In this document: in pieces, positions 34,601-63,132 of the stretch
Layout of the letters: every line of letters begins with the position of its first letter
How positions within the stretch are numbered: position 1 is the stretch's first letter
Source: Apostichopus japonicus
Taxonomy: Eukaryota; Echinodermata; Holothuroidea; Aspidochirotida; Stichopodidae
Length of the DNA: 64,000 nucleotides
NCBI RefSeq assembly: GCF_037975245.1
Contig: NC_092569.1
Span: 36,002,168 to 36,066,167 of the forward strand
Direction of reading: 5' to 3'
Made by a program: the position numbers and the translations under genes
Notes under the pieces: model-generated
Databases searched by the model: none
Seen by the model: only the letters and a program-made list of their open reading frames with translations
What the model was told of the DNA's origin: nothing

Positions 34601-36152
34601 TGTTTGAAAAACCTAAACGAACATTGGTTGGAAAAGAAAATAGTGGTTCATTATACTTGGATTATTTGTACAGGTCTTGAGAATTATCAAAAACTAGGTC
34701 ATGTCAGTGGCATGGAAGTCGGACAGTGTGTTAGGCTGGTGTAACATTAAACCTTGAGTGGCTTCTTGTTATAGTTAATGGACAGTAAAAATGCCAGCTA
34801 ATTCTTCAATAATATTAACAGACCTTGTCTTGTTCAGTTCTGTGACTTTACTGCTTTACAGAAGCAGAATTGACCAGTATTATCAACAAGGTTTTGTCCT
34901 AAGAACTGTTCTCTCTCTATTCAACAGTGTTGTATTTTGTATAAAGTATGAAATAAATTGTACAAGAATACATGTAAACATGTCAACACATATTATCATA
35001 TTAATATTAAAGGTATATTCAGTTGTAGAATTGTGTTTGCCATTAATCTTTATGCTAACATTATCAATGACCTGGTAACGTAGTAAGTGACTTCCTCGAG
35101 AAGGTCGATGCGCTTGACATGTAAGTTAATTCTCGATCACAAATGCGGAGATTGAAATTGATGTTTTCTCATTTTCAGGGAACCTTCAGTTTTAGAAGAG
35201 TGTGGACTGGATGAGAGGACAAGAGATGTCTTGCTAGATAAGATCCAGTTTAAGCTAACACCACAGGCTGTCAAGATTAGATCAGGTTTGAATCTCTTTC
35301 ACATAATGTATTTTTCATTAATACTGATCACCTTAGATATTGTAGTACTTAACATGTTTACAACTGGTTTGTATTGTCTTTAATTGATCCATCAAAATAG
35401 TGACGTGTCTTGTTTTTGACTGACCAGTGTTAATTATTAATATCTTTAGATATTATTTTGAAATGTTTCTTACTGTTCTGTAAAATTGCAATATTAATCT
35501 CTTCAAATATCCCAGGGTCATGAATTTTGTTTACTGCTCTGTAATTTCATTATTTATATCTTCTGATATTTAAGACAATGTTTCTTACATTACTGTGGTA
35601 ACACTATTGATCACATCAGATTTCTTGGGTCCTTGTTGTTTACTGTTCTGCAATATCAGTATTGATCACTTCAGATATGTTGGGTTCATGTTTTTTTCTC
35701 CAGATCTTTAGCAGGTCACCTGTTCTGATATTTTATTACAATGTTTCCTACTGTTTTGTAATATCACTATTGATCACTTCAGATATCTCAGAGGCATGGT
35801 TTTCTTATTGAATTATAATTTTGTTATTGATATCTCCTGATATTGCAAGGCAATATTTCTTACTGAACTGTTGGTAGCACTATTGATCACATCAGATTTC
35901 TTGGGTTATTGTTGTTTACTGTTTTGTATATCACTATTGATCACTTCAGATATTGAGGTGTCCTGTTACGGATATGATGGTATTGATGCTGTTAAAAATG
36001 CACTGATGGAGGGCCTCAGCTTATCTGATGAAGAAATGCCAATCAAGGTACTGTAAGCTTAATTGTTGACAGTGTTTTCAGCTTCCTCAAATATATTAAG
36101 GTCCCATGAAACTGAAAACATCATTAAATAACATCATACATCAATAACATCA

Positions 36153-36230
<78 letters not shown>

Positions 36231-37577
36231 GATTCATCTAATAGCACCAATTCAATATGTTTGTGTTTATTTTTTTTTTACTTATTACAGATTCATCTAA
36301 TTGCAGCACCTCAATATGTTTGTGTTTAATTTCTATTTATTTTTTGTCAGATCCATCTAATAGCACCACCTCAATTTGTTTGTCTTTATTTTTGTTTATT
36401 TTTTCAGATTCATCTAAAGCACCACCTCAATATATTTGTATTTATTTTTATTTATTTTTTCAGATCCATCAAATAGCACCACCTCAATATATTTGTGTTA
36501 ATTTTTTCAGGTTCATCTAATACCACCTACTCAATATGTTTGTGTTTTATTTTATTTTATTATTTTTATTCAGATCCATCTAAAAGCACCACCTCAATAT
36601 GTTTGTGTTTATTTGTGTTTATTTACTCAGATCCATCTAATAGCACCACCTCAATATGTTTGTGTTTATTTGTGTTTATTTACTCAGATCCATCTAATAG
36701 CACCACCTCAATATATTTGTGTTTATTTACTAAGATCCATCTAATAGCACCAACTCAATATGTTTGTGTTTATTTGTGTTTATTTATTCAGATCCATCTA
36801 ATAGCACCATCTCAATATGTTTGTGTTTTATTTTATTTATTTTTATTAAGATCCATCTAATAGCACCACCTCAATATGTCGTGACCACACAAACCTTGGA
36901 TAGAGTGGAAGGGTTGGCCAAGTTAAACCAGGCCATAGAGAAGATCCGAGATGCGATAGAGAATTCCAATGGAACGTATAATGTCATCATGGCAGTAAGT
37001 AGCACATAAGTAGCACATTATAAATAGTCTACCCATATGCATACTATTAGCCACCCACTGAGCGTACCAGTTGATGATGGCTTATCAGAACCGTACCTCC
37101 CAGGAATCTCTTGACCTCTAAATTTTGTATAATGGAGTTCAAAATCAGATCGACAGGGAAGGTTTAGTTTAGTGAATCGGAGGGATTAGCTGCTTTGGGT
37201 CGTGTTTATTTCTTCTATTTCTGGACAGGTTTTCTAGATTTGTTTGGGTTGTATGTCGGGTGATCTTTGACGCTGGTGCTGTGGGGATTACGATACAGAA
37301 GAGAGAACATGTTTTGTGTACCAGAGTTGCTCCCAACCACAGAGCTCTCCCGATATCCAACACTGTCGCTGTAACAGTTGCTACTACTACCTGTGAGCTA
37401 ACACCAAAGATGAGGAATCATTATCAAACATTTTGTCTTCTTCTTCTTTATCAATCCCAGCCAAAGGTTGTAACAGACACAGATGAAGCTGAACTAGCCA
37501 GACATCTGACGGAGCTTGAGAAACAGAACATGGAGGTCGATGGAGACAACGATGCAGACGACCTCGGAGAACAGTGA
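31698..37577 (+). CDS. EIF2S1: Eukaryotic translation initiation factor 2 subunit alpha
   Basis: Seven coding exons: 31698-31935, 33249-33328, 34199-34350, 35179-35285, 35950-36047, 36851-36994 and 37461-37577. They total 936 bases and give a 311 aa protein, against about 315 in vertebrates. All junctions are GT-AG and all phases fit. eIF2alpha is the regulatory subunit of the eIF2 GTPase that brings initiator tRNA to the ribosome. The N-terminal S1-type RNA-binding domain (about residues 15-90) contains [12 protein letters not shown]. Its second serine, residue 51 counting Met, is the site phosphorylated by stress kinases to shut down initiation. The helical middle and the C-terminal domain follow ([23 protein letters not shown]), with an acidic end. 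Introns 4 and 5 hold tandem repeats built from the acceptor of the following exon. Exon 6's own acceptor (TTTTATTAAG) is weaker than most decoys. An AATAAA lies at 38213. Confidence 0.96.
32475..32595 (-). repeat. tRNA-derived SINE fragment in EIF2S1 intron 1
   Basis: Read on the minus strand, it has an A-box-like TGTAGCAGTTAAAGTG and a B-box GGGTTCAATCC at about the spacing of a tRNA promoter. Non-tRNA sequence follows. There is no cloverleaf acceptor pairing, so this is a SINE fragment and not a tRNA gene. Confidence 0.5.
32719..32761. repeat. Hairpin in EIF2S1 intron 1
   Basis: CAACCATGGAGGT and its inverse ACCTCCATGGTT flank a short loop, with outer bases also largely pairing (AGTT / AACT). 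It is an isolated intronic palindrome of unknown role. Confidence 0.5.
35430..35955 (+). repeat. Tandem repeat of the exon 5 acceptor in EIF2S1 intron 4
   Basis: Diverged repeats of about 50-60 bases end at the true exon 5 start (35950). The core is the acceptor region TATTGATCACTTCAG followed by the first exon bases ATAT. Near-exact acceptor copies end around 35667 and 35780. Looser ones (GATCACATCAG and similar) lie near 35615 and 35893, with further decayed copies back to about 35440. Larger blocks of about 277 bases also repeat (from about 35590 and 35868). Confidence 0.75.
36156..36229. repeat. TA dinucleotide microsatellite
   Basis: Uninterrupted alternating TA of about 74 bases in EIF2S1 intron 5, directly upstream of the splice-junction minisatellite. 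Confidence 0.95.
36227..36879 (+). repeat. Splice-acceptor minisatellite in EIF2S1 intron 5, 12 units
   Basis: Twelve units spaced 47-63 bases apart. Each consists of a T-rich tract, CAG (or AAG), then a copy of the first ~28 bases of exon 6 (ATCCATCTAATAGCACCACC and onward to CAATATGT). Unit starts, counted at the base after AG, are 36232, 36291, 36351, 36408, 36464, 36511, 36574, 36631, 36688, 36735, 36792 and 36851. The last is the real exon 6. Nine of the eleven decoys carry a CAG after a pyrimidine-rich stretch, so they look like usable acceptors. Copies 8 to 9 stay in frame, but most spacings do not, and use of unit 11 puts a stop at the real exon start. Confidence 0.95.
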
Positions 37578-38799
37578 AGTGAATATGAAGAGTCAGGTGA
37601 CAAACCTGGCAACATTGATTTATACATTAGTCAGTGGAGAATCCATTGCTATGGACAATTGGTGACCTTTGACCCATTTGGAGCTTGTTTTGTGTTAAAG
37701 TGGATAATACAAATGATTCCACCTACAGTAGTTCATGAGACATCATTTACAGAGCATTTAGACTAGTTGATGAACTGTTGGGTACTATTTTATAAGGCAT
37801 CTGGCAATTCTAAGGCTAAGAGTCCATGTGTGTACTGTATGCTAGTCATAACCTGTTTGTGTTTATGGTTATTACACTAACATTGTGCAACGTTATGTTT
37901 GTATCTTGGTTGTAAACATCATAAGTATTTTCCCTCAGTTATACTTTGAAGACATCAAAGTAATTACTATTTTCTGCTATTATACTTGTTTGACTGTCAA
38001 ACTTGAAGCAAGGACACGTCCTCTCTCTCTCATAAACAGTCAGTAACCATCAATGCCCTCAACAATTATTTGTGAAATGAACTTTTTGGATACTTGGAAC
38101 GAGTGCTGCTTTCTGAAATGATGTTTCAACCAAAATACTGACCAGATTACAGAACTTATCTTCAAGTCATTAGTGCAGAAAAGTATATTCATTGTCTGTA
38201 AATCATCAGCACAATAAATCAATTAGTTTCTATACTTAAAACAGAGAGCCAACTCCCAGAGATCATCATTAACATTAACATTATCACAGAGGTTATCATT
38301 AACATTATCACAGACATGAATGTGTTTGGCATTGTTACTCTACTCTAGATTACATAGGGTTGGATGTAAACCATTAACCTAAGGTTTGGGATGATCTTTC
38401 TGTTCTTTGATATTTCTGTCTTTAATTAGTCATGCCTGTAAAGTTAAAGGAGTATTCCATCACAAGTATTGCCTCTCATCAACTCATGAGGGTCTCAAAT
38501 TTATAAATCTGCCGCTAGGTTAGTTGGTTTACATTTTAATTGTCATCAAATGCTTCAATAGTTCTTCTGTTGTTTTTGTATTTACGATTCCCTTAAAACC
38601 TTTCATAACTTTTTTGTTCTTAATAACGTAGTTGTTGATACTACTTTAAATACACAAGATAAAAGTATCTTTTAATCTGTCAACTTTAGCTACAACTTTG
38701 GAAGTAATAAATATATCCAAAGTGAGAAACATGACTGTATTTATGATCTCTATCTCTTTAAAAGTCTTTAATGTCAGTGGATTGTATTGTCATCCATAT
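37578..38799 (+). other. 3' flank and probable 3' UTR of EIF2S1
   Basis: No coding feature. It contains a direct repeat of ATTAACATTATCACAGA (about 38271-38315) and an AATAAA at 38213-38218. Confidence 0.5.
38213..38218 (+). terminator. Candidate polyadenylation signal for EIF2S1
   Basis: Canonical AATAAA 636 bases after the stop codon. It is a plausible end of the mRNA, but other ends cannot be ruled out. Confidence 0.4.
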
Positions 38800-39735
38800 T
38801 GCTGTCCATTTTGTTATGGATGCCTGTATGCACCTTCAGTATCAAACCGATTGCCTGTCCATTTTGTGATGGATGCCTGTATGCACCTTAAGTATCAAAC
38901 CAATTTGCTTTTAATTTTGTGATGGATGCTTGTATGCACCTTGAGTATCAATCCGAATTGCTGTTCATTTTGTGATGGATGCCTGTATGCACCTTCTGTA
39001 TCATACCGATTTCCTGTCCATTTTGTGATGGATGCCTGTATGCACCTTCTGTATCAAACCGATTTCCTGTCCATTTTGTGATGGATGCCTGTATGCACCT
39101 TAAATATCAAACCAATTTGCTTTTAATTTTGTGATGGATGCTTGTATGCACCTTGAGTATCAATCCGAATTGCTGTTCATTTTGTGATGGATGCCTGTAT
39201 GCACCTTCTGTATCATACCGATTTCCTGTCCATTTTGTGATGGATGCCTGTATGCACCTTCTGTATCGTACCGATTTCCTGTCCATTTTGTGATGGATGC
39301 CTGTATGCACCTTAAGTATCAAACCAATTTGCTTTTAATTTTGTGATGGATGCTTGTATGCACCTTGAGTATCAATCCGAATTGCTGTTCATTTTGTGAT
39401 GGATGCCTGTATGCACCTTCTGTATCATACCAATTGATGTCCATTTTTTGATGGATGCCTGTATGCACCTTCAGTATCATACCAATTGATGTCCATTTTG
39501 TGATGGATGCCTGTATGCACTCTCAGTATCAAACCAATTTGATGTTCATTTTGTGATGGATGCCTATATGCACCTTCAATATCAAACCGATTTCCTGTCC
39601 ATTTTGTGATGGATGCCTGTATGCACCTTAAGTACAAACCAATTTGATGTCCATTTTGTGATGGCTGTCTGTATGCACCCTCAGTATCAAACCAATTTGC
39701 TGTCCATTTTGTGATGGATGACAGTATGCGCCTTC
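38800..39735. repeat. Minisatellite of about 56-bp units, about 17 copies
   Basis: Each unit contains GATGGATGCCTGTATGCACC followed by a variable AGTATCAAACC segment and CCATTTTGT. A three- to four-unit block keyed by TTTGCTTTTAATTTTGTGAT recurs at about 38907, 39117 and 39327, giving a higher-order period near 210 bases. It lies between the convergent EIF2S1 and RTN4IP1-like genes. It shows no match to an exon edge, unlike the intronic arrays. Confidence 0.9.
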
Positions 39736-40842
39736 AGCTGAAGGATTCTTCATCAATGAAATACAGCATCAAGAAAGCTGGTCGATACGGAGGTGTCCCT
39801 CAACATTTCCAAAGTGAATATCTTGGTGTATTTATTGGGTAAAATAAGGCTGTGTTTTCCCCGCTTTTATGTAGGCCTACCTTTACCCTGACTCCTTACT
39901 CCAATAATACAATATCACGATAGCTGGTTTCATCAAGTATCATTCATCATTTGCAGTTGAACAAGTTATAGCATATTCAAGAACAATTTGTTAAATTTAT
40001 CCTTTGTTCTTCCTTACGGCTGTTAATAAAGTAACCCCGCCATGTCATATGTATAGAGGTACTTCATATGAAGTAGCAAGAAGTACGATTAGTTTTATGG
40101 AACTTTGGATAAGTTGCTATTAATGTTTGTTAACCATGCGTAATACAATAATAACAGAAATCAAGCAAACGTTTGAGATTCGGATATTTTATTGGATTTG
40201 GAGAGTGAATTGCATCATGAGAAGTGGAACTGAGTACCATAGTGTCAGCTTAGATGAAAAGTTCTATCATAATTTGAAACAAGTCTAAAATATGGGAGTT
40301 TGTGAGGCTGATTAGTGGAATTTAAGTTTAAATAGTAAATAGAAGCTAACTACAACAGCACTAAGGTTTACCCTACCCCGCCCCCCCCCCCCCCATTACA
40401 TGCTTTTAAGATCTTTCTGAAGGGGTTAATAACAGTTGAGTTGATATAAATAACTAACACCAAATATTACTTGATAGTCGTGAGTTTCGACATTATCATT
40501 CGACTCCTTTTTTGTAAAAAATACAAATTGGAAGACTTTCTACTAAATTTCAAGTTGGACGTACCATCCGTTGCTAAGGTTACAAAAAAATCCAAAGGTG
40601 CTTGATTATCTAGCCTTGTCTGGTAGATTGAGAAATCGCAATCTCATTCTTGGTTATATCGTCAAGTTTGGTAAACTCAGTGAAAAACATGGTAACCAAA
40701 TTACAGACAAAACACCTTACTTTTCTTATTCATAAGGATGGATAACATTTTGTAACCTAACTATATGAAACATTTCCCATTGGTCTCTTGTATATTCCCG
40801 AATTGGTCTCTTGTATTTGCGTAATAACAACTGTGGGTCTCT
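39736..40842. other. Interval between the minisatellite and the RTN4IP1-like gene end
   Basis: No gene recognised. A TTTATT at about 40186 (AATAAA on the minus strand) could end the minus-strand transcript. A poly-C run lies at about 40379-40394. Confidence 0.4.
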
Positions 40843-43800
40843 TCAGTGATCATAATCAGGTATAGTGACCACCATCTTACCCCGGGCGTGACCCTGTTTG
40901 ACCCGATTGAGGGCGTCGTTAGCGTCTAGCATGTCATAGGTGGTATCGATGCAGGCTCTAATCTGAAAAAGTAGAAACGACAGAGGGATTATACCAATTT
41001 ATGTAATGAATAAATATTATCTGGTCCAAAGCAAATTGGGGGATGAAAAGAAGTTAAACCGGAATGTCAAACCCATCCCTTACTGTACTGTTCAGACTAG
41101 TTGTGCAATCCCCCCCCCCCCCCTGTATCAACTGACAGTTTTCGAAAGCACAACCGGATCAAGACAACCATTTTTACAATTCATAAGTCCTTCCGGACGT
41201 TTTATCTGCGTGGCGAACTTCTTGCATCTTGTGGTATCTGGTAATTGTTGCCTTCAAAATGATGAAACATTACGTCATGGACTGGGGCGGACTGGGGCAT
41301 GAATTTTTACCAGCTGAGGGATCCATCAGGCAGGAGCTTGCAACAGCGATCGACGCACAATAGGCACTTTGTACAAGAGTAGAACTTTCCCAACCAGGAG
41401 AAACCAGGCGCCTCGTAACCTGCGGTGGACCGGTCCAGAGCCAGTAAGCCGGAAGGCCAAACCGCCCGGTCATCCATTTACTTGAGAACGTAATGACTAT
41501 ACAATATTATTCTTTACCACATACCTTGCCTTCCTGTACCAGTTCGGCGATCTCACCTAGTCTTGCTCCACTTTGTTCATGGAACGAATGAACAAATAGT
41601 TTTCCATAGAACAATTTCTGTAAAGAAATAAACTACTCTTGTAAAAGCATTAGCATTTTTCGACAAAATTATCAAATTTCCATTAGTTTCGGAAGGTTGG
41701 GAACCAAATTGATAGCCCATAATCGGAATGGCATCTCGGTGATTTAAAAATTCTCCTAAAACATCTCCTGAAATTCCACGAGGGGTGGAGGAGCCGGTGG
41801 AACAGGGGATAACACCCCCCCCCGCCCACCACCACCACACCCATCCCCTATATTTTGTAAAACCTCAAAAGGATCACATTCATAGCTTAGTAAGTTCCCC
41901 AATTGTTAAACATTTGAAATAATATTAAAAAGTGTCTTTTTTGTTATTTAAAATGTGCACTGTTGTTGAAAACTTAAGCATAAAGTAATTAACAAGTGCC
42001 ATTTGTTGCGTTATTTTAAACAAGTAATTTTAAAGGGCCATTTGAATTCAACATATTTATCCCTGAACAAAAATGGCTAAAATCGTCACAGCAGATAGTA
42101 AATAGTTGTGCACATGCGGTGTTAGGGGAGTTTATGCTTGTTGAGTGTGATTTTTTCACTCAATACTTTACAACCGGCTGCACAATGCGTCGACCGAACA
42201 CGACTCGACTCAACTGGACAGCCGTAACACCGTTTTCAATAGTCCTCAATGCATGTATGGCCATAGTTTAATCTATCTCATTTGAAAGGAATCCCTTTAC
42301 CAATGGACAAAAGAAAATAGTTTGTTGCTAAAGCAAGTATCCGCTTTTAGAACCGCATTGTTCTTCGTATAGTGAAATAACTTATATAACCATATTTTCA
42401 GGCCTAATGAGGGTAAGGGTGGGGATCGGGGTGAGCGGGGGACAACGCTGGGGTTTGTTTGGTGGTCCGTGAAATATGGAGGGGTCGGGGAAATACGGGG
42501 TACATGAAGAGTGTGAATTCTTCCCCCAGAGCCCGACCATGGCTCACGACGCCTCTACATATTTATCAAAGATGTCGGTTGTGACATCTATCAATATAGG
42601 CTACCAGCAAAATATTTCGTAGCCCGGAACAATGTATTACAACAATTATCACTAATGATTTGGTGGTTTCTTTCTCTGTACCTGAGGAATCTTAATCTTG
42701 ATCTTATCGACAAGATTGACCACGGAACCAATGATGAAACCAAAGCGATCCAAGTTTCGCATAACAGGTGTAACTATGGTTACCACCGCACCGCCAGACC
42801 GGCAAACCGCCAAACAGGAACGGTATGTATCATTTCCGCCTCTCGTACAGAAGACGTAGTCAAATCTGGAATTAAGATTTAACAAAATCATTTTTTTTTT
42901 AATGTGCATGGAGATTGACTAAAACTCATTTTCTAAAATTGTTAGCGTAAAATATTTAGTTAGTGGTCCTGCATTTCCTTCTTTGCAATTACCCAAAATT
43001 ATTAAGTAAACAGGTTTACAAATCCCCATACTTACTTGGATCAATACAACAACAAAACACTATTTGTTGATGATGATCTTCTCCAGCTAATAAGATTAGA
43101 GGCTTTTAGCTGTTTCCCTACAAGGAAACAGAAGCAACTTCTCGTTGAAACGACTGGTATTGAGACCTGGTTCTGATGTGTCGGCCATGTTTTAACCCAA
43201 AGCTTTCCGCCGTTTAGCTGGCCAAGCATTATACTGCACAGTGGTCAAACTAAGAAGACAAGGCCTGTTGTGTAAACACATGTCGGGTCTTGCAATAAGA
43301 ATTTGAAGTAATTGTACGGAATCTTACATGGCGGAATCTAAGCAGAATTTTGTGTCCTTCAAATTATATTCTAGGACTAATGATGCAACAAGACCACGTG
43401 GTATCAACAGAAATGCATATGCAAAGTATGTTACAACAGTGATGTAATAATAGACTCCTATCACCATTGACTTACTATAAACAAAAGAAAAGTCATGTGA
43501 AAGTGCATTGTTTCCATGGCGGCCTAAAATACCCCGACATAGTAAACGAGCAAGAATGAATTAATACGATCGTTTCTCGTGGCTATCAAAATGTTTTTCC
43601 CAAAAACTATAGTTTTTGTTGAGCGTTAATGAAACAATATGTCAATCATATGTGATTGACATATTGTTTCGCTCAACAGCTCATCAAAATACGTGCAATA
43701 ACCGAACTCGTCACACTTTTACACTTGTTTCAGGCCATGGCTAATATACAGTATTGCATCTCAAAAAGTTTGCCTAAGATATATCTTTTTATGTACCTTT

Positions 43801-46800
43801 CTTTGCCTTCCATAGCAGAAACCAAAGATTCCTTTTTGTAATCGATGACGTCATCCGCTCCTAGTGATCGAACCATTTCGAACCCATCGGCGCTGCATGT
43901 GGTTGTCACGTGACATTCCCACGCTTTCAAGAGTTGAATAACAAAACTTCCAATACCACCAGTGCCAGCTAAAACCAGGACCCTGTGATTAAATTAGACA
44001 GATCTGGAATTGAAGAGAGGTCACTCGGAGTATTCCCAACCAAGTAAAATACGTTAGTAAATCGCATTTATTTAAAACATCCTCATTTCTTAATTGAACA
44101 GTTCTGCAATTTATTTGTGGGCTTTAGCAATAGGCACGCGGTTTTGTTTTTGTAACTATACTGTTGGCATTATATCCGGGTCTACTAGAAAACTCATTTC
44201 ACAACACCTTAACAAATGGTTATGGAACAATATAGGAGAAATTTGTATACGGCGCCTTATTCCGTATACAAAATTGTGACATCACATAAGTATAAGCTAG
44301 GCGCTGCTTGTAGGACTAGTCGTCTGGCCTGGATTAATGAAGGCATTGTTAATCCTGAGAATGTAATTGGTACTAAAGAGGGATAAAAGCAAACACAGTT
44401 TGCTCCTTTAAATTTAAGCAAAATGCATAAAAATTTGCCTGACGAGAGGGGTCATGAGCTAAAGCCCCTGGCTCGGGACATTGCATAGTAGAAATATGGG
44501 AGGAACAATAAGTTAGTCTCATTTTCATATTATATTTAATGAAGAGTGAAGATATTTTGTGACATATTTCCCCCGGGTCCGACGTGGCTGTCGACGCCAC
44601 TGTGTATCCTGCAGTAACCCGTTTGGTTACTGCATGCCCTTACATTTTAAAATACACATTTACCGTTTGCCTTTAGCCGAGGATGGGTTTACTCCAGCTT
44701 TTTGAAGCGCCGGATATGAAGTGTTGATGACGTAAGGAAGTGAAGCAGATTGTGTATGAGTCATGTTTTTAGGCTTTAAGCTGACGTCACGTTCAGACGT
44801 CAAGAAATACTGAGCAAGTGTTCCGGCAGGGTGGAAGAGCATGACACTCGTCCAAACCTGAAGAAAAAAGTCCAGGACAGGATTATGTAAACAGGTAAGA
44901 GAATAATGCCTTATATTACATGATGGGCTTGGAATGAGGTTGTACTAGGCCTGAACTGGGGCTGGAGTATGCATTGTTATATAATATCGGCTGGTGCTGG
45001 ATTGATGGCCAGAGACTGAGAATGGAATGTGCCGAGATCAGGCAGGGATTGAGTTTGACTGTGATCGGAATGGGCTGTGATTGGGCTGAGACTGGAATTA
45101 GTGGAGCAGGGGCAGGAATGGAATTTGGCTTGAGGCTGAATTGATACTGAAATGGGATCATGTGGGTCTGATATAGATTGGGGATTTATTAGACCTAGTG
45201 TCCAATGTTAACTGGATAACAATGGGTACTGAGGATAAAGGTGGTAAAACGGTATCCTTGCCCCACTAATGTCCCACTAATTCCCCCACCACAACTCTCT
45301 CTGTCTCTCTTCCAGGGCTCACAATATAAGATTGATTTGAATTCTAGATATTAATTATTGAAAGATGTATAAGCAAAACCGATCCCACACAATATAAGGT
45401 CACTTCCAGTTTCAAACTTTACATAGACAATTAAATTATTTCCTCGAATAGAGGCTAATGTAGCCATGGCAACGCATCATTATTGTATCTATAAGATCAG
45501 GAAGACTGACCTCATCTCCTGGTTTGAAGTTCATCACGAGTTCACCAACCTCTTCCACCACTCCTGAACAGTCTCGGCCAATGACGAAAGGAAATTCGTT
45601 AGAAAACTGAAATGAAAGCATTTCAGATTATTATAGGCACATTCCCCACTATAATCCCTGACAGATGAACATACAGTACAGACGGTTGTATGAGGATGGT
45701 CACACATAATGGATTTACGGATAATCCGCTGTTAGTGACCCAGTCAGGTATCATGCGATGGGGCGAGACTAATTTAAAGAGAGGGTCGCCCCCTGGTTTT
45801 GTACTGGTGGTGCTAAGATGTTAAGTCACCCCAGGGGAGGGGTCTAAGAGGAAGAATGACAGTAAGAAACCTCTCTCTTTGATTTTATTTTGTCAAATGG
45901 TGGGCGGCGCGTAAATCCAAAATGGTGCTTTATTTTGCATTTTTGGAAACAATGTTGAAGAATCTTCGACTGTTCAGTCTACATGTAACCAATATAGAAC
46001 TAGTATTGTTCGATACAGTTGACAAAAGCCTACAGTGGAATAACGATCTTCCTTACGGGGTTTCGAACCTCTGGACATACAATCAGCGTCCATGGTCTAG
46101 TTGGTTAGGGTGTTCGCAAAAGAAAGCGGGAGGCCCGGGTTCGAATCCCGGTAGAGGCTAAAATTTTTCACTGTTCTGGGTTTTCTATCTCATTAGAATT
46201 TCAAAGATGTGCTGTCTGCCAGTGGTTGGTGGGCTTAGCACTTCCCATTTTTCTAGGGTTAAAGCCCCCCCCCCCCACCCTCCAGCACACACAAACAACA
46301 GAGAGGATACGTGGTTGCTTCCCTGCTTGTATCTCATGGTACAAATAACAGTCCACTGTCGTCGGAGACGACACGGAAACACCATATTGCTCTTTTATCT
46401 GCACGATGAAGAGGCGGATGTTAATCGGGTCGGGGGGGGGGGAGAGGGGAGGGTATTAATGTATTGGGTAATAAACATTCTGGTTTATCATGTGTAATTT
46501 GTTTAGAATAAATTAGCCCTACATGAAATACTGTGAAAATATCATGTTGTGTCTCCCTTCCTCAAAGTTGACTCGCCCAAAGACCGGCGTGACTTACCCC
46601 AAGTTTCGTCCTGATATGTTCTAGCATGTTGCGTCCATAGCCTTCTTTGACACGGTAGTCTATGGGGTTAAGCGATGCTGCCTTCACGCGTATCAGTACA
46701 TCCGTTGCCTTGGTTACACGTGGTCTAGCTATAGTACCTATCTCCATTGGATGAGTGCCATAGCTCTTCACTAATATCGCCTTCATCTTCTTCGTGTCCG

Positions 46801-49937: not shown

Positions 49938-49954
49938 AAGCCATTCAGAGAGTC

Positions 49955-50215
49955 CGCTCCCTATCCAGGTCTTCTACATTGGTAGTGAAGGTCAAAATGG
50001 GATGAGATTGCGACGACAAGCTCCCTCTGGTTGTTACTTTCCACCCAAATCTTCCTCCTCTTCATATACATATATATATAGTTATATGCGGACACACTAA
50101 CCACTAGGCTATGGACGCTGATTGTATGTCCAAAGCTTCGAAACCGGTAAGGAAGGTCGCAATTCCACTGTAGGCGTTTGTCACCTGTATCGAACAATAC
50201 TAGTTCTGTTTTGGT
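49955..50215 (-). repeat. tRNA-related SINE, copy B
   Basis: Inverted relative of the repeat at 45985-46185, sharing TATCGAACAATACTAGTTCT and the segment around CTAACCACTAGGCTATGGACGCTGATTG. It abuts the Penelope-like relic on its left. The A-box side is better preserved here than in copy A. Confidence 0.65.
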
Positions 50216-52488
50216 GACATAGTTGCCTTACTCTAGAGATCAAACATGATTTTAACCAACTCGAAGTCATTTGTGATTCCTAAAAGCCGGATCTCGTAAG
50301 TTATACTTTGAACAGACTTTTCTTAATGAAATGGAGGTAAACGACAAAGGCGAATTAATATATATAATTGAAATCGTAAGGAGTTGAAAAATCCAGAACA
50401 GTTATATCTATATATACATATATATGCATGTGTACTTTACTAATAAGCAGAAAAAAATAACCTACCTGTAGTATGCTAATATAATACAATATTCGGTTGA
50501 TGTCGAGGTTTTGTTCAACGAGTTACCAAAATTTATATGTTGCTTTGATGCAGCTGAAGTATAAATGAAGTGGAAAACTTTACACACAAACCATTTATGT
50601 GTATGCTAAAACAGTTTATGCATGTTAAATGCTCGTTTTTCTTGTATATCTGATTCTAGATTTTATCACAGATGGTCGCTCTAATATTTTAACACCTACA
50701 CAAGTGTAAAACAAATTACACGATATGAGCCATAAAACAAGTGGGGAATGTAAACACCTATGTTTGCTTGCACGCCATATTGCAATGCGGTGCTGGTAAC
50801 AGTGAGTTTAAAGAAATATTTCATATGGATAGTCTGCATTAATATTAATCTAAACTAATTGCTTTCGTAAATTCTCATACCCAACTGAGCCTAACGCCAG
50901 ATGCGGGACTGTTATTGTACATGACTGAACTTAACTCTAGGAGGCCAGACTGCTATGCACGTGACTAAACATAACGACCGTGGCCGCGACTGCTTTTGAA
51001 TCGAACTGAAGCTAACACCATAAAATGGGACTGTTTGTTGCATCTACATGAATGAGCCTATCACCAGAAGAGGAAATGTTTTTGCACCTTAATTCATGAT
51101 TTGTATACCAGACTTTAAGACCGATCACAGAAACGGACCACGCCCTCTATTTTAGCGTATTTTTTGTTCAAATTTATCTATCATTAAAGTTAATAAGTCA
51201 ATTTGAAGCTTTCAGCGGAAGCGAGTTATTTATATATAAACATATCTTCTATAGGGACATATGGTAAACTATGTGTACGTTTGGGTGTCTATACCCGTAT
51301 ATCGAAATGTGAGGGTATAGAAATGAATTAATTTTTCTCAAATTGGCAAGTAAGTTGAACTTTCGAGTAAAATAAATAAGCTAGTTATATAGGTGTTTTC
51401 AAATATATAATAATGGTCTTCCAGTGCAACTCATTATACCGTTACGTAATATTACAAACAAGTTGAAAATCATTTCAAATATTTGACTTTAATATGAGTT
51501 CAAATTCGATTAACTTTGTATTTGGGACTAATAGAAATTATGATGGAATTATTGAATAAATATTTCTAATTGATTCTCTCAAAATCAGCTCCAATTTTTC
51601 TAGCAGTTCCCGTGTGGTCATACACATGAAAGACTAGACGTTTGATAAAGTTTAATGTTTGATAAACTCTATCTTGTGAAAATGTGACATTTGCAATAAT
51701 CGAGAAATTCTGATGTTCGAGTAATTGGAGAGGTTTGCACTTACAACATTAAACGTCAGGCCAACTTACTTTTACACAACCTTATAAGTTAATATGCGAA
51801 CAAACATTTTCCCAAATTATCAGAATTACACATTGGTTATTTGAACCAGTTTGCCATATGTCACGTGATTTAAAATCCAACAGATTGTGCTCATGGTTAC
51901 CACTTTCATTTTTTAAAGTTTATTTTTGGTTTCCACATCATTTTTTTGTTACCAAAATCAAATCTAAACATCTCAACTGATCCACTCTGAGCCCCAGTCC
52001 CATTTTCATCGAGACTGTAACCGTATGATCATGATGTTACGTCATTATGTGTGTCACATATTATTTGGAAAGGGGATAAATACTGGACATGGTCAGGCTA
52101 AAGGCCGAGAACTATACTTGAGATAAAATGTGATAATTAATTAGAATTACTAACAATGATATATCTGGAAAATAGGAACTTATATTGACTTATTTTAGAC
52201 TGTAGACGAACATACGTATATTGTACCTAGTGTATGCAAACAGCGAGATTCTACAACAGTTACGTCATCAATACACTTTGACATTCTTGCTTACGTCATG
52301 TTTATACCGCAGTTTAAAAGTGCCATCAAGATAAGAAAATCGTTACCCTAATCAGTGGACATTAAAGAAATTAAAGAAATAAGCAAAAATAATGAATTGT
52401 TTAGTTGTGTTATTTCTAAATTTCACCAATTTCTGAAGAAAATGATTAGATGAAACTTTTAAAGTCAACTTTATTAGCGATATCTGCG
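50216..52488. other. A/T-rich interval without recognisable genes
   Basis: No family similarity or convincing open frame on either strand. Short TA-rich stretches occur near 50060-50080 and 50405-50425. Confidence 0.5.
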
Positions 52489-52700
52489 TTAGTCCTTATG
52501 TGGCGACATGCGAGATCCCCACATATATAGGACTTGTGAATATTGTCGGTATTGGCGGTCATTATGTGGCAGTGTTAGGATCGCATGATAGGTAAAATGT
52601 TCTTGGTCATTATGTGGAGGTGCTATTAGTGCCACATAAGGACTTAAACGGTTCTTGGTCATTATGTGGCGATAACTTTGTGTTCACATAATGACTTAGG
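52489..52700. mobile_element. Short foldback repeat with CATTATGTGG motifs
   Basis: Several copies of TTGGTCATTATGTGG lie in one orientation. Inverted copies occur near 52635 (GCCACATAAGGACTTA) and 52684 (TTCACATAATGACTTAGG). The left edge (TTAGTCCTTATGTGGC) and the right edge are inverted relatives. It looks like a small non-autonomous element or its remains. Confidence 0.5.
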
Positions 52701-54035: not shown

Positions 54036-54043
54036 GTAACACC

Positions 54044-55241
54044 CAGGGACGTCGCTAGAGGGGGGGTGTGTGGGGGTGTCTCACCCCCCCAATCTTGGTA
54101 AAAATTACGATAGTTGGAAAATTTGAGTGCGACAGTCGGAATTTCCGACTGTCGGAATTTCCGACTGTCGCCAGCTTCAATTCGGAATTTCCGACTGTCG
54201 CACTCTAATTTTTCTGACTGTCGCACTTTTATTTTCATATGTTCTTGTAATTTGTGAGTGACATAAAATTTTCGATCAAAATTGACCTTTAATCAGTCAT
54301 ATTTACCACGTTTACTCGTCACATTGAGAAATTGTATCTCGCGATCCTTATACTCCACCATACAAAACTTCGTACGATTTTGAATACTCTAAAAAAAAAT
54401 ACAACGTTCGCCAGCTTCAATTCGGATAATTTATGTATTAATTTTGCTATTGGGTGGGTCGACCCTGTTCGCTTGCTTCAAGTAAGTTCAGGATATACAG
54501 GGACGTAGCCAGGGGGAGCAGGGGAGCGACTGCTCCCCCCTTTCAGTGTCGAAAAATATGTTTAAAAACTGTTGTTATTACACTGCTAATACACGGCGAT
54601 AACGATATTTGTTTTTAGGCCACTGCACATCTGGCTGTCTTACAAAATATGAAAGTTTATATTGTCCATCAGTTAAGTTCGTCAAATGTATTTCTGATAT
54701 ATTATGTAAAAGAACATGTAAAAGAATTCAAACAGGAAAACAAAATCTGCTGATAATATGATATCATATGATAATGATGAAACTGGCAACAAATTGCACC
54801 AGATCGCATCTAAGGACCTTCAATTGTTCAAAAATATCTCAAAGGGGAGGGGGACACCCCCTCCCCTTAGACCCCTCCCCCATAACAATCGCAAAATGTG
54901 TTCCCTCTTTCAAACTCCTGGCTACGTCGTTGGGATATATATTGTCTCTATGGTATACAATTAAAACGCCAATGCTAATCTATGGAAGCTTAAAAGTGCC
55001 ATCAACATAAGCAAAAACTTTGCCCCATAAGGTACAAATGTATCGAAAAAAGTTCGGAACATAAGTGCATTCGCGAAAGATGGGGTGTCTGACTGAAACT
55101 GACCGTATCGTTGACGATTAGTGCGGGGGTGGGGGGGGGGGGTACAAGGCAGCAGTCGGAATTTTCTGGCTCCAAAACCCATCCAGTTGGAATTTCAGCC
55201 ACTACACCCCCCCCAATCATCAGGCCTTAGCTACGTCCCTG
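54044..55241. mobile_element. hAT-like non-autonomous transposon, 1.2 kb
   Basis: The ends start CAGGGACGT on both sides: left CAGGGACGTCGCTAG, right the reverse complement of TAGCTACGTCCCTG. They are flanked by a perfect 8-bp duplication GTAACACC at 54036-54043 and 55242-55249. An 8-bp duplication with CAGGG-type ends is the signature of the hAT superfamily. The interior has related opposed ends (54500 GGGACGTAGCCAGG, about 54919 CCTGGCTACGTCG), suggesting a nested relative. No transposase frame. Confidence 0.82.
54128..54230. repeat. Cluster of GTCGGAATTTCCGAC palindromes
   Basis: CGACAGTCGGAATTTCCGAC and related pieces occur three to four times in about 100 bases. Each is palindromic, and the block as a whole is flanked by GAGTGCGACAGT / ACTGTCGCACTC inverted edges. 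It lies inside the hAT-like element. CAGCTTCAATTCGG also recurs at about 54413. Confidence 0.75.
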
Positions 55242-57953
55242 GTAACACCGTGTGAGAAATTACTGACTTGAAAGCCTTTATGATATATTTCATTCTAATC
55301 AACCAATCACCTATATTGACAGAGAAACTGAGAGTCATCGCCCTCATATATATCGCCACGTGTCTATGAAAGCACCGTAGCCGGCAGAACTTTTTTAGGG
55401 GGCGCATGCACAATTGTGCTTCCAAGTATAAAATTCTATGACGAAATTTAATTCGGCATTGTGCAATGCTGCCCTCTATTTTGGACGGCATCTTATGACT
55501 TTTGTTTAAAATCTGTGACACCATCTTGTATTTAGAAAACGGGCACTCTTCTTATGGTGTTCGAAAGAGGCCCTTCAAAAAGCCCAAAATATTGTAGCCT
55601 GTTCTAGGTATTTATATTTGCAGAGATTTTCAAATATGTACACCTTTTTGTTAAGACACTAATGTAGCAAACACAACTAAGTATTTTGAGGTTATGTGTT
55701 TGTGCACCTTTCCATATTGCACTTCAAATATTACCAGATATTTTAAACAGAGAGAAGAACAATATAGGGATTTAGAAAAACACAGAGGTACAAATAGGGT
55801 TTATCACATTTATTTCATCAAATCTCAAGATATTCTACAGTAATTCAAGAATCTGTGAAAACCTCAAGCCAGTAAGGCTTAAGGCATAACCCAATTTTCT
55901 TTTGCAAAGGGTAAACTACAAGGTCTTGCTAGGCTTGGAGAAACAGGGAATGGGCTACCTTCCATCTTCAGAGGTGAGTTGGGGGAGTGGGGGAAGGAGG
56001 AGGAACAAAACTTCTTCTCTCAATCTGCCACATGAGCATATCCTTTTAAATTGAATATTCATGAAACATGAATGTGTAACCACTCAAATTCAATGGTAAC
56101 ATTGGTTTAGTAATCCATTGTTTCAGTGGTGTTGAGTCACTTTGGCAGATTTGAACAAATGCTTTAAAGATTATGAAATCAGTTTTGAGTTATTCCACAA
56201 GAAGTCTATAACTTACTCACAAGAAATGGGGTTTGTTAATGAATAGAAATACTACAGAGATAGAACTGTATAGATATAATCATGTCCTTGTAGAAAACAA
56301 TTTACTGGTAACATGACATCTGGAGTGTGAATCCTGATAGTTTAATATTCAGTAAACCTGAAAGGAGAGCAATTCTAGTAAATAAGAGAGATCTGTAAAA
56401 CACTGAATGCATCTAAAAGACACTTTGTTACAATCTTCACAGCTGAATATATATGTCTCTCCATTTTTCCTGACGTGTTTGGAAACTTTGGAAACATTCA
56501 AGCCATGTTTATAGCCGATTGAATAATTTATGCAGGCCTCTTACGTTAATTGATGTACTTTGCATTTTCTTTTAATATTGATAAGTCAATGCGAACAGAT
56601 GTGTCTAGACACAATGTGATTTGATCTTTATGCAAGGTTAAATAAATAATGAACACTGGGTAAACTCTTCGTTCAGTTCCTTCATTGCAGACCTAACGTT
56701 TGCAGAACTAACGTTTGTCCAGTACCAATTAAATACTTCATTTCATAATGGGATCAATACTTTCATACTTTAATTTGATGTCACATAAACTATTGTCATG
56801 TCAAACATCATCAATATTGGCCACAAATTTTAGTCCATAAATATTTCTAACACTTTGCAAAAGTATCTTTCTGGGTGCTTCTGACCATCAAAATTATCCA
56901 CAAATATTGAGAGGTCTTCAATGAGAGACTTTTTGCCTCCTCTCTGAGGTCATGTGATAGGTCATGTGATAGTGAGTGGTGAAGTGACAAGCTTGTTAAA
57001 ACATTCACAATGAGTGACCTTTATTTGATTTCCTTCTATATCTGCTGCCAATACTGATGATCATTGTTACCAGAAGACAATCCTTGCCATGAACTTTGGA
57101 GTATAAATATATTAAACTTACTGTAGGCATCTGGCAACAAGGTAAATTCAGTTTGTAGGAAGTCAATACAGATGCTAATGTGAAGATAAGGGATGAAAGA
57201 TACAATAACTATAAGAGAGGGAGGGAGAGAGAGGGAGGGGTGGGAAGATGTAACTATAACTAAATCATAGAATTGGAAAGAAAGTGAGGTAAAACTACCA
57301 AGTGTACAACACCTGATGGAATGCGAACATTTTAAAATTCACAATTAGCACACAACATCAACCTCGTCAGCAGTGATATTACAGTGAATAAAACACTTGG
57401 ACAATATTTAAAATGCTTATATTTTTAAAAGCTTTAAGTGTCTTGGGGGTTTATTGCTATAAAATGTAAGTTTACTGTATTTTTCAGTTAAGGTGAACAC
57501 ATGATACTAGTATAAATCTGATGAATTCACATAATGACAACAGCTTTGGTACTTGCTGTAAACTCATTTTTGTGACTCAACACCACGACGATGCTCATGA
57601 AAGTAGCTGCCTATGGGATTAACATATGACAACAAACAAACTGTATTGCTTTGGTGGATTTAGAAATACCCTCTGAGGGAAATTTAACATTTAACAATTA
57701 ATCAAATTTTGAAATACATTTCAATAATAATAATACTGTTAAAAAAGTTTACAAAACGTACAAATAAAGCGAATCAGATATGAGATCAATATAAAATGTT
57801 TGGAAGGGATGCATTAAAAGAGAGATTGTCGTAGTTGTTATTAAACTATCATTACTGAAATTCTTCTCTGTTATTAAAATTTACGACTACTGTTGCTGGG
57901 TCAGATCAGTTCTGCGAGGGGAGTTGACTAACATGCGATGTTCACAGAAGGAT
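55242..57953. other. 3' flank of the laminin-type gene
   Basis: No coding feature. Part of it must be the 3' untranslated region of the minus-strand gene. Minus-strand AATAAA candidates (forward TTTATT) occur at several places, for example near 57021 and 55807, so the transcript end is not resolved. A G/A-rich GAGGGAGGGAGAG run lies near 57217-57242. Confidence 0.4.
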
Positions 57954-60900
57954 TCAGTTGGCAGGGCAGGATCGTAGATCAACCTCTCCAACTCGTCTCT
58001 TGTTTACTACCGGTTCAGACTTGCCGTTAATGACGATGTTTCTGATACAACCACCGAAGGATTCGTTCTCCAAAATGCCATCGTGAACTTCACCATCTGA
58101 AGCAGAAATAAGTTGAAATTGTAACACTGGTGATGTGAATGGACTTAGCATTTAGTAATCATATAACAACTAGCAAGAAAGGATTCCTGATTTACAGGGA
58201 AGCATATAAATTCTCTAGGTTATAACAAGAAGCAGCCAGTTGATCAAATACTAATACCACTCTATACTGTCCTTCAGAGCGTATGGACAGAATTAACAGT
58301 TCCTAACCTTTTTCTGATAGGAAACTGATATTCATACTGCTCATTCTGTCAGTTCGAGTGCTTTGAGGCCGGACATGAAAATACAGCTCAGAATAAACTT
58401 GTCCAAACTATGCATGAAGTTATCATCTGATTATGTGGCTTTCCCTATCACTTACTTAGCCAGTTCAGAATGGATTAATGACTCACCAGGAACACCACGA
58501 AAGTATAAGGGATTAATGACTCACCAGGAACACCACCAAAGTATAAGGGATTAATGACTCACAAGGAACACCACCAAAGTATAAGGGATCAATGACTCAC
58601 CAGGAACACCACTAAAGTATAAGGGATTAATGACTCACCAGGAACACCACCAAAGTATAAGGGATTAATGACTCACCAGGAACACCACCAAAGTATAAGG
58701 GATTAATGACTCACCAGGAACACCACCAAAGTATAAGGGATCAATGACTCACCAGGAACACCACCAAAGTATAAGGGATTAATGACTCACCAGGAACACC
58801 ACCAAAGTATAAGGGATTAATGACTCACCAGGAACACCAACAAGGTATAAGGGATTAATGACTCACCAGGAACACCAACAAAGTATAAGGGATCAATGAC
58901 TCACCAGGAACACCACCAAAGTATAAGGGATCAATGACTCACCAGGAACACTACCAAAGTATAAGGGATTAATGACTCACCAGGAACACCAACAAAGTAT
59001 AAGGGATCAATGACTCACCAGGAACACCAACAAAGAATAAGGGATCAATGACTCACCAGGAACACCACCAAAGTATAAGGGATTAATGACTCACCAGGAA
59101 CACCAACAAAGTATAAGGGATTAATGACTCACCAGGAACACCACCAAAGAATAAGGTATCAATGACTCACCAGGAACACCACCAAAGAATAAGGGATCAA
59201 TGACTCACCAGGAACACAACCAAAGTAAAAGGGATCAATGACTCACCAGGAACACCACCAAAGTATAAGGGATTAATGACTCACCAGGAACACCACCAAA
59301 GAATAAGGGATTAATGACTCACCAGGAACACCACCAAAGAATAAGGGATTAATGACTCACCAGGAACACCACCAAAGTATAAGGGATTAATGACTCACCA
59401 GGAACACCACCAAAGTATAAGGGATCAATGACTCACCAGGAACACCACCAAAGTATAAGGGATCAATGACTCACCAGGAACACCACCAAAGTATAAGGGA
59501 TTAATGACTCACCAGGAACACCACCAAAGTATAAGGGATCAATGACTCACCAGGAACACCACCAAAGTATAAGGGATTAATGACTCACCAGGAACACCAC
59601 CAAAGTATAAGGGATCAATGACTCACCAGGAACACCACCAAAGTATAAGGGATCAATGACTCACCAGGAACACCACCAAAGAATAAGGGATCAATGACTC
59701 ACCAGGAACACCACCAAAGAATAAGGGATCAATGACTCACCAGGAACACCACCAAAGTATAAGGGATTAATGACTCACCAGGAACACCACCAAAGTATAA
59801 GGGATCAATGACTCACCAGGAACACTACCAAAGTATAAGGGATTAATGACTCACCAGGAACACCACCAAAGTATAAGGGATCAATGACTCACCAGGAACA
59901 CCACCAAAGTATAAGGGATCAATGACTCACCAGGAACACCACCAAAGTATAAGGGATTAATGACTCACCAGGAACACCACCAAAGTATAAGGGATTAATG
60001 ACTCACCAGGAACACCACCAAAGTATAAGGGATCAATGACTCACCAGGAACACCACCAAAGTATAAGGGATTAATGACTCACCAGGAACACCACCAAAGA
60101 ATAAGGGATCAATGACTCACCAGGAACACCACCAAAGAATAAGGGATCAATGACTCACCAGGAACACAACCAAAGTAAAAGGGATCAATGACTCACCAGG
60201 AACACCACCAAAGTATAAGGGATTAATGACTCACCAGGAACACCACCAAAGAATAAGGGATTAATGACTCACCAGGAATACCACCAAAGTATAAGGGATT
60301 AATGACTCACCAGGAACACCACCAAAGTATAAGGGATCAATGACTCACCAGGAACACCACCAAAGTATAAGGGATTAATGACTCACCAGGAACACCACCA
60401 AAGTATAAGGGATCAATGACTCACCAGGAACACTACCAAAGTATAAGGGATTAATGACTCACCAGGAACACCACCAAAGTATAAGGGATCAATGACTCAC
60501 CAGGAACACCACCAAAGTATAAGGGATCAATGACTCACCAGGAACACCACCAAAGAATAAGGGATCAATGACTCACCAGGAACACCACCAAAGAATAAGG
60601 GATCAATGACTCACCAGTAACACCACCAAAGTATAAGGGATTAATGACTCACCAGGAACACCACCAAAGTATAAGGGATCAATGACTCACCAGGAACACT
60701 ACCAAAGTATAAGGGATTAATGACTCACCAGGAACACCACCAAAGTATAAGGGATCAATGACTCACCAGGAACACCACCAAAGTATAAGGGATCAATGAC
60801 TCACCAGGAACACCACCAAAGTATAAGGGATTAATGACTCACCAGGAACACCACCAAAGTATAAGGGATTAATGACTCACCAGGAACACCACCAAAGTAT

Positions 60901-63132
60901 AAGGGATCAATGACTCACCAGGAACACCACCAAAGTATAAGGGATTAATGACTCACCAGGAACACCACCAAAGTATAATGGATCATTGGTGTTGGTTTCA
61001 GTCTGTGCTGGATTATCGCTGACCCCTAGTATGCCTTCCTCACCGTCCACTGTTATAGAGGCTTCAAAACGATCTTTGACCACTGCAAAAGAACAGTGAT
61101 GACAAAGATGGCCCTTTGTGTTACACTTTTAAAGTCACAAATTTGAAATTTTTTTATGCTTGTTTCTTCTGTCAATACTTCATATGTAATATTATTTATT
61201 ATATTCTGTATTGGTATAGCATCATCGCATGGTGGTGCTAATGGTATAGCATGGTGGTGCTAATATAATGGTATAGCATGGTGAAGCTAATATAATGGTA
61301 TAGCATGATGAAGCTAATGTAATGGTATAGCATGGTGAGGCTATTGTAATGGTTTAGCATGGTGAAGCCAATATAATGGTATAGCATGGTGAAGCTAATA
61401 TAATGGTATAGCATGGTGAAGCTAATATAATGGTACAGCATGGTGAAGCTAATGTAATGGTATAGCATGGTGAAGCTAATATAATGGCATAGCATGGTGA
61501 AGCTAATGTAATGGTATAGTATGGTGAAGCTAATGTAATGGTATAGCATGGTGTAACTACTGTGCTCATAACTAGCTATTAAAAGTCAGTGGGCTTTGAC
61601 AAACAACAGCAAAATGGAATCTGCTATGCTATGCCACCACCAAACAAAGCTAGTGAAATTAAGGGTAGTTACAAAATATGTTAATGCTATATCACTGCAA
61701 AAACAGCTTGTAAAATTTATAATAAAGCTACAAAATACTTGATGCTATGCCATAACACAGCAATATATGTATGTTCTATGTAATTGATCAAACAAAGCTA
61801 GAGAGATTAAACAAAAATCTACAACTTACTGTAAATAGTTATAACTTTGGCCAAAGTTGAGCTAGTGAAATTTAGCATATAGCTACGAGGTATCTACTAT
61901 GCTATGTTGCTGGCCATAGCTGAGCTAGACAAATATAGCATATAGCTACAAAACACCTTGTATGCTATGAATTTAGCATACAGCTATGAAATATCTTCTA
62001 TGGTATGTCACTGGTCAAAGCTGAGCTAGTCAAATATAGCATATAGCTACAAAATACCTTGTATGCTATGAATTTAGCATACAGCTATGAATTATCTTCT
62101 ATGCTATGTCGCTAGCCATAGCTGAGCAAGACAAATATAGCATATAGTTACAAAATACCTTGTATGCTATGAATTTAGCATACAGCTATGAAATATCTTC
62201 TATGGTATGTCACTGGCCATAGCTGAGCTAGTCAAATATAGCATACAGCTACAAAATACCTTGTATGCTATGAATTTAGCATACAGCTATGATAGATCTT
62301 CTATGGTATGTCACTGGTCAAAGCTGAGCTAGTCAAATATAGCATATAGCTACAAAATACCTTGTATGCTATGAATTTAGCATGCCGCTATGAATTATCT
62401 TCTATGCTATGTCGCTAGCCATAGCTGAGCTATACATATATAGCCTATAGCTGTAAGGTACCTCATATAGTATGCTTGTGTCTATACACAATCTACTGGT
62501 CTTTCACATACCTTCTATGCTATGCCATTGGCCATTGCACAAGCTGAACTCCCCATTTGGAGGAATGTAAGAGGCCATGAACTCCCCTCCTCCATTCTGT
62601 ACACTCAAGAACAGCTGTCAGAATACAAATAAAATAAATCACGGATGAAACATTTAACAATCCTCATTTTTCATGATCAGTTTGTTCACACAAACGTTTT
62701 TATCAAGTGCTTCCCTACTGCATCCAACTTTTTTGTCTCTTACTTCAATTTGGTGGATGTAGTTAACCATCAAGGGCCAATGAAATGGCTTCAACAAAAA
62801 TCTTTCCAATTCCCAAATTTCCATTGTTACATTCAAAACGGTTCAAGTAAAGTCTGTTCCACAACAATATATTCTAATGGTGTACATAATTATCACATCA
62901 CAAACACTTTCAGACTATTTTTAAATAGCTGGATGGATGGGGAGGGGAACATTGAGAGTCATGAGTGGGGGACTACAAGTGTTGAAGAACCAGATGGCTA
63001 CCTGTCCGTCTCTTAATTCCAAGGCCAAAAAGTCCATGTTTGGTTTCTGGATGGAGAAGATGGTTCCACTGCTCTTCCTGGGCTTGATGTCAAAGGTCAT
63101 TGTCAACTCGATACCAACAGAGAATTCATCGC
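57954..63132 (-). CDS. Laminin subunit alpha-like protein, C-terminal LG domain (partial gene)
   Basis: Last four exons on the minus strand: 63132-63002, 62614-62512, 61082-60957 and 58096-57954, all GT-AG with matching phase. Together they encode about 157 aa, one laminin G-like domain at the C-terminus. Signs of the family: ELTMTFDIKPRKSSGTIFSI, LELRDGQ, LCNGQWHSI, DPLYFGGVP, and a final ESFGGCIRNIVINGK ... DLRSCPAN followed by stop, with the two cysteines that close an LG domain. In laminin alpha chains the terminal LG modules bind cell-surface receptors in the basement membrane. The rest of the gene lies beyond 64000. Other LG proteins (perlecan, agrin) remain possible; the CPAN end favours laminin alpha. 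Two of the three introns contain arrays made from exon ends. Confidence 0.8.
58472..60978 (-). repeat. Splice-donor minisatellite, about 66 units of 38 bp
   Basis: On the minus strand each unit reads TTATACTTTGGTGGTGTTCC, TG, then GTGAGTCATTRATCCC. The first 22 bases are the last 22 bases of the exon at 61082-60957, and the rest is its donor and the first intron bases. The unit nearest the exon is the true junction. The other ~65 fill most of the last intron and keep the GTGAGT donor almost without exception. Variants (T/C at one site, GTATAAG/GAATAAG, AACACTACC, AACACAACC) show higher-order copying. Confidence 0.97.
61205..61560. repeat. Minisatellite of about 27-bp units, about 13 copies
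   Basis: Unit close to GGTATAGCATGGTGAAGCTA followed by ATATAAT. It lies in the intron upstream of the exon at 61082-60957. No resemblance to either neighbouring exon edge was found. Confidence 0.9.
61860..62545 (-). repeat. Tandem repeat derived from an exon end, with mutated donors
   Basis: Units of about 100 bases contain TCTTCTATGCTATGTCGCTA / GCCATAGCTGAGC, matching the exon end and donor at 62512 (forward ACCTTCTATGCTATGCCATT followed by GGCCATTGCACAAGCTGA). Copies sit near 61890, 61990, 62090, 62190, 62290 and 62393; the true exon end is last. At the position of the true donor GT the copies have AT, so they no longer form donors. A second half-unit (ACCTTGTATGCTATGAATTT) also looks derived from the same edge and keeps GT. 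Confidence 0.75.

Follow-up and report, generated by a model that had tools for sequence, protein, structure and literature searches.

Tandem repeats built from splice junctions in four introns of an EIF2S1 gene and a laminin alpha type gene are examples of mirage-type minisatellites, probably of ordinary origin

In this study, we asked whether four introns of two genes carry tandem repeats copied from their own splice junctions, and whether such arrays call for a special mechanism or for nothing beyond ordinary tandem duplication. The window, that is, the whole stretch of 64,000 nucleotides that was analysed, has a GC content of 37.6% by base counts, and its gene content is that of an animal. 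Three spliced genes were rebuilt by locating and joining exon edges, which gave 16 introns and 32 junctions:

31698..37577, plus strand: EIF2S1 gene, seven coding exons, 311 amino acids; the joined exons form a single open frame (Pfam EIF_2_alpha and S1; PDB eIF2 subunit 1)
47598-40843, minus strand: zinc-type dehydrogenase gene, which we take to be RTN4IP1 and call RTN4IP1-like; dehydrogenase domains by Pfam
57954..63132, minus strand: laminin alpha type gene, 3' end comprising the last four coding exons and the terminal LG domain; open frame up to the stop (Pfam Laminin_G)
63132-63002, 62614-62512, 61082-60957 and 58096-57954, minus strand: the last four coding exons of the laminin gene

The best PDB matches of the laminin exons were laminin alpha-1 and alpha-2, and exon 1 of the RTN4IP1-like gene has an uncertain placement without homology support. 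For EIF2S1, scanning bacterial and archaeal genome contigs for stray relatives yielded 26 pattern matches, of which none was confirmed. Elsewhere in the window, three near-identical single-exon open reading frames (ORFs) of EamA-type transporters lie in tandem on the plus strand (1125-2192, 6908-8002 and 11248-12441; Pfam EamA was tested on the first and third); the surrounding segments, about 2.4 to 2.8 kb long, are 94-97% identical, and a related 20 bp minisatellite comes after each. The reverse transcriptase ORF of a retroelement (3229-4407, plus strand; Pfam RVT_1) sits between the first and second of them. Other ORFs include one with Psq and Tc5-type DNA-binding domains (20884-21393, minus strand), probably a transposase remnant, and a C2H2 zinc finger ORF of 439 residues (26712-28028, plus strand). 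In addition, a repeat pair in opposite orientation (45983-46118 and 50087-50220, 87.5% identical) may be a tRNA-derived SINE; its first copy overlaps the single Rfam match in the window, a tRNA-like stretch at 46086-46159, and ARAGORN found no tRNA genes in the window.

For each junction, a probe of 25 exon and 25 intron bases was aligned to the rest of its own intron and compared with 200 shuffles in two-base blocks. Four of the 32 junctions recurred in their own intron, with P at the floor of 1/201 each: the acceptors of EIF2S1 intron 4 (z = 15.1) and intron 5 (z = 20.2), and the donors of laminin intron 2 (z = 8.1) and intron 3 (z = 26.1). All four are the junctions named in an earlier note on this DNA, so that its claims of arrays copied from the own splice junction in four introns of two genes, and of both acceptors (two, in EIF2S1) and donors (two, in laminin) being affected, were confirmed. 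The other 28 junctions, including all 14 of the RTN4IP1-like gene, showed no recurrence in their own intron by this shuffle test (z at most 2.5). Uncorrected P values of 0.075 or lower appeared at four of them (EIF2S1 intron 3 acceptor, 0.02; laminin intron 2 acceptor, 0.045; laminin intron 1 donor, 0.07, and acceptor, 0.075), which is unremarkable among 28 tests. A 50-base probe slid along every intron, with a score limit of 36 chosen after the junction shuffle test, detected internal repeats in the same four introns and none in the other 12; both designs are blind to repeats lying within one probe. Beside the donor of EIF2S1 intron 6, two copies of AAGTAGCACAT directly follow the GT (36995-37020); they contain no exon bases, are below the length needed to pass, and may represent a very recent duplication next to a junction.

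The repeats in and around these four introns are as follows:

35430..35955, plus strand: junction array 1, EIF2S1 intron 4 (35286-35949); unit spacing of about 56 bp, ending with the real acceptor (AG at 35948-35949)
36156..36227, plus strand: (AT)36 microsatellite directly before array 2 (TRF)
36227..36879, plus strand: junction array 2, EIF2S1 intron 5 (36048-36850); unit of about 57 bp, real site AAG at 36848-36850
61869..62533, minus strand: junction array 3, donor of the laminin exon ending at 62512 (intron 2); unit of about 101 bp with two junction-like cores
61239-61553, minus strand: 27 bp array in the same laminin intron 2, touching no junction (TRF and sliding probe)
58472..60985, minus strand: junction array 4, donor of the laminin exon ending at 60957 (intron 3); 66 units of exactly 38 bp, the first being the real donor

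In array 1, nine units, the real acceptor included, match TATTGATCACTTCAG followed across the junction by ATAT with at most 4 mismatches of 19, and three further places with 7 mismatches are at chance level; TRF at its default threshold did not list this array. Its exon share is ATAT(T) only, 4-5 bases. The next 19 exon bases showed no homology to the units (P = 0.72), and a wider exon share for this intron was dropped, homology ending after those five bases. AG is kept in five of the eight inner units and lost in three. Array 2, for which TRF also gives periods of 47, 104 and 224, repeats the acceptor together with 29 exon bases 12 times, T-rich tracts separating the copies and the real site closing the series; the copy at 36406, which has a deleted base, is counted among the 12. 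All 11 inner copies keep AG, in 10 cases as CAG against AAG at the real site. A separate 53 bp minisatellite (38798-39737; 17.8 copies, higher-order period 212 bp) lies some 1.2 kb beyond the EIF2S1 stop codon and touches no known junction.

In array 3, the real donor is separated from the clean array by a degenerate unit, and 12 intronic copies could be read, with GT at the donor position in six and AT in six; these counts exclude a weak copy at 61642, which has 15 of 33 mismatches. Likeness to the exon spans approximately its last 22 bases: none of 5000 shuffles was as good over the last 12, the next 10 gave P values of 0.006 and 0.027 in the two unit classes, and the 10 before those gave 0.095 and 0.65, all with an upward lean, since the units had been picked by their likeness to the junction. 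The same intron holds a small repeat cluster at 61692-61771 that touches no junction. The unit of array 4 carries 22 exon bases, and its first donor falls on the last base of the exon. GT is present in 66 of 66 units and the nonamer CTG/GTGAGT (slash, junction) in 65, so that 64 of the 65 inner donors are identical to the real one over nine bases. The units fall into 15 distinct types, with 47% type agreement at a shift of 23 units against at most 28% at the other shifts from 1 to 39, and this period points to block duplication by past unequal exchange.

The earlier description of a unit that spans the exon-intron boundary is clear for arrays 2, 3 and 4 (29, about 22 and 22 exon bases), but the unit of array 1 is nearly all intronic. 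The array units are also mutually unrelated: only one of 30 comparisons, in which 15 pairs that also took in two non-junction arrays were compared on both strands, reached P = 0.01. This agrees with the note's proposal of repeated independent births, the four arrays being separate. The idea of a shared mobile element behind them was dropped because of the same unrelatedness.

The direction of copying can be read from the exon parts. That of array 2 encodes a conserved 10-residue stretch aligning with INLIAPPRYV of eIF2 subunit 1 (PDB), and those of the laminin arrays encode NDPLYFGG and LCNGQWHS, against NDPIYVGG and LCDGKWHT of laminin alpha-1 (PDB). Because these parts are conserved in known proteins, the exon came first and the intron copies are derived in arrays 2, 3 and 4; the exon share of array 1 is too small to tell. 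With exons joined, the reading frames of the EIF2S1 and laminin genes are intact, and this conserved frame suggests that RNA splicing uses the exon-side copy. When a tandem duplication crosses a junction, one of the copies stays attached to the body of the exon, and splicing there keeps the mRNA unchanged. The real junction does stand at the end of every array, as had been reported, but this arrangement gives no clue to a special mechanism, because geometry and purifying selection alone would leave a terminal real junction.

On this evidence, we consider that the arrays are in all probability mirage-type minisatellites, a kind known from amphioxus genes, which arose by ordinary tandem duplication and expansion and have been tolerated. 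As to the mutational route, we infer that a short tandem duplication would happen to span an exon-intron boundary, and would then expand and be homogenised via slippage, unequal exchange or gene conversion. The copy touching the exon body would stay the working splice site, remaining in use because the mRNA is then unchanged, and the remaining copies would become intron. In array 4, the exon bases CAATGATCC, immediately preceding the first unit, match CATTGATCC at the intron end of the unit in 8 of 9 positions; slippage between these short direct repeats may have primed the first duplication, a suggestion that concerns one array and was noticed afterwards. The argument fails for array 2, in which the shared partial copy is far too long for a primer. 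Under exon definition the shortest exon wins, and the exon-side site is favoured among equal sites. Exon definition would probably explain why decoys of the same local sequence are tolerated by the dozen. Against the neutral reading, local sequence alone would favour the inner CAG copies over the real AAG in EIF2S1 intron 5. A purely random origin may also be incomplete, because four of five arrays touch junctions, above the expectation of uniform seeding.

That excess was estimated with a model in which the first unit is seeded anywhere touching an intron, and junction contact means at least 4 exon and at least 4 intron bases. Four of the five arrays in the 16 introns touched a junction, the 27 bp array being the one failure, where 1.2 would be expected with introns collapsed to one unit and 0.58 with introns of 777 bp, the mean of the 12 array-free introns (median 755 bp). 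The corresponding P values were 0.009 and 0.0006, and they became 0.02 and 0.004 without EIF2S1 intron 4 (three of four). Counting the cluster at 61692-61771 as a sixth array, with an assumed unit length of 40, raised them to 0.016 and 0.0014, or to 0.038 and 0.009 if intron 4 is dropped too. All of these values rest on assumed pre-expansion intron lengths, and they flatter the excess because the window was chosen for the very pattern noticed there. The excess over uniform seeding is therefore moderate, post hoc and suggestive, and is no proof of a junction-specific mutator.

Such a mutator, acting through R-loop ends, exon-edge nucleosomes, pausing or RNA-templated repair, would raise the rate of tandem duplication at splice junctions. 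It would account for the seeding excess and for the finding that all four repeat-bearing introns have an array at a junction while 12 of the 16 introns have none at the limit used, and several amphioxus genes show junction repeats in the available portions of the literature (PMC3087553, PMC3902484). However, the sample is small and picked after the fact, the seeding P values weaken with the sixth array, and not one junction of the RTN4IP1-like gene is repeated. Moreover, conserved exon bases keep one unit readable, so that old junction arrays are easier to spot than others. We therefore think a junction-linked mutator unlikely as the source of these arrays.

Selection for decoy splice sites, which the earlier note had also offered, would mean that the copies are kept for tuning splicing, for instance by directing part of the transcripts into decay. 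The predicted effects of the inner sites are at first sight in keeping with it. An early stop is predicted at 37 of the 38 modelled inner positions; 29 of the 38 have a proper AG or GT, and 28 of these 29 lead to an early stop. In EIF2S1 intron 5, this holds for 10 of 10 modelled inner acceptors (the eleventh was left out of the tally), and in intron 4 for eight of nine modelled positions, three of the nine being without AG. The exception is the nearest inner acceptor of intron 4, with AG at 35894, which would add 35896-35949, that is, 54 bases encoding 18 mostly hydrophobic residues in frame and no stop. In laminin intron 2, all 12 modelled positions give an early stop, six of them without GT. 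In laminin intron 3, seven extension lengths were modelled of 65 possible; six are predicted to stop 47 bases into the intron, and the one-unit extension gives a frame shift with a stop after 161 codons instead of 166. The fully kept AG of array 2, mostly in the CAG form, and the almost uniform donor nonamer of array 4 point in the same direction. Nevertheless, conservation of the decoy donors in array 4 does not significantly exceed that of the remaining unit: whereas 12 of all 38 positions vary, the donor hexamer shows variation at 0 of 6 (P = 0.083) and the nonamer at 1 of 9 (P = 0.13). The loss of AG from three of eight inner copies in EIF2S1 intron 4 and of GT from six of 12 in array 3 also speaks against selection, and we judge this explanation quite improbable. 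An assembly artefact that inflates short local duplications is scarcely credible, for although one amphioxus mirage seems to be misassembled in the draft genome, according to the available part of its description (PMC3087553), the units here carry ordered variants with the 23-unit period, the divergence differs among arrays (TRF matches of 96%, 90% and 80% for arrays 4, 3 and 2), and the reading frames of both genes are intact.

Apart from the ordinary origin that we prefer, a broader reading would have minisatellites truly originate at splice junctions in some animal lineages besides amphioxus, with seeding linked to the junction and the exon-side copy picked by position alone; we hold this to be doubtful. 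If true, the donor array with its 66 copies would let the choice of the spliceosome among equal donors be tested in a natural setting. Since nearly all inner donors of array 4 match the real one over nine bases, local sequence cannot explain which site is used, and nature has here set up a clean experiment on how splice sites are chosen. Should the excess hold across the genome, splice junctions would be hotspots of mutation that bear on intron gain and alternative exons, as has already been proposed for amphioxus globins in the available part of that report (PMC3087553).

Finally, the earlier note had supposed that no class of this kind was described. This does not stand: as far as the available portions of the two amphioxus reports go, the "mirage" minisatellites match our arrays in anatomy, unit-length range and both site types (PMC3087553, PMC3902484). 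According to these portions, mirages occur in Adh3, the globins BflGb6 and BflGb9, troponin C and PGBD5 (PMC3087553, PMC3902484), with units of 10-72 bp in Adh3 and 150-160 bp in the globins (PMC3087553), and with repeats of 60 and 108 bp at splice sites in lancelet PGBD5, where troponin C is cited (PMC3902484). They affect donor and acceptor ends, many but not all of the repeats carry AG or GT, and splicing is said to be regular (PMC3087553, PMC3902484). Among the matches listed by title and abstract, a scope that left subscription literature mostly outside, this class was not met with under any other name, the papers cited here apart; "Mirage" in a spider genome paper denotes a class of transposon, a different sense of the word.

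Two other systems are related in part. In human genes within segmental duplications, tandem repeats at exon-intron boundaries are reported to have modified introns in 27 cases (PMC2812944). They resemble our arrays in minisatellite expansion across these boundaries, whereas the available portion of that report credits them with giving rise to novel introns and to alternative splicing (PMC2812944), and the exon structure here appears unchanged. Tandem genomic duplication has been treated as an intron source, and it and dual-specific splice sites likewise involve duplicated segments that bear splice sites, as described in the available parts of the two studies (PMC10809524, PMC3443670); unlike in those cases, an existing junction has here been copied into its own intron, and no new intron results.

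The amphioxus mirages remain the closest parallel. As in their available descriptions, tandem units here span an exon-intron boundary, clearly in three arrays and by 4-5 exon bases in EIF2S1 intron 4, and are found at both donors and acceptors, two of each; the authentic junction is retained, the array lies on the intron side and the frame is intact at the level of DNA. If the host is not a lancelet, the known range of the class widens; if it is one, two genes are added to the list. In copy number the two differ, with 66 units in array 4 against 6 and 3 in the two BflGb6 haplotypes given in the available portion of that report (PMC3087553). The arrays described here are real, well-formed examples of a described kind, and one of them is unusually long and uniform.
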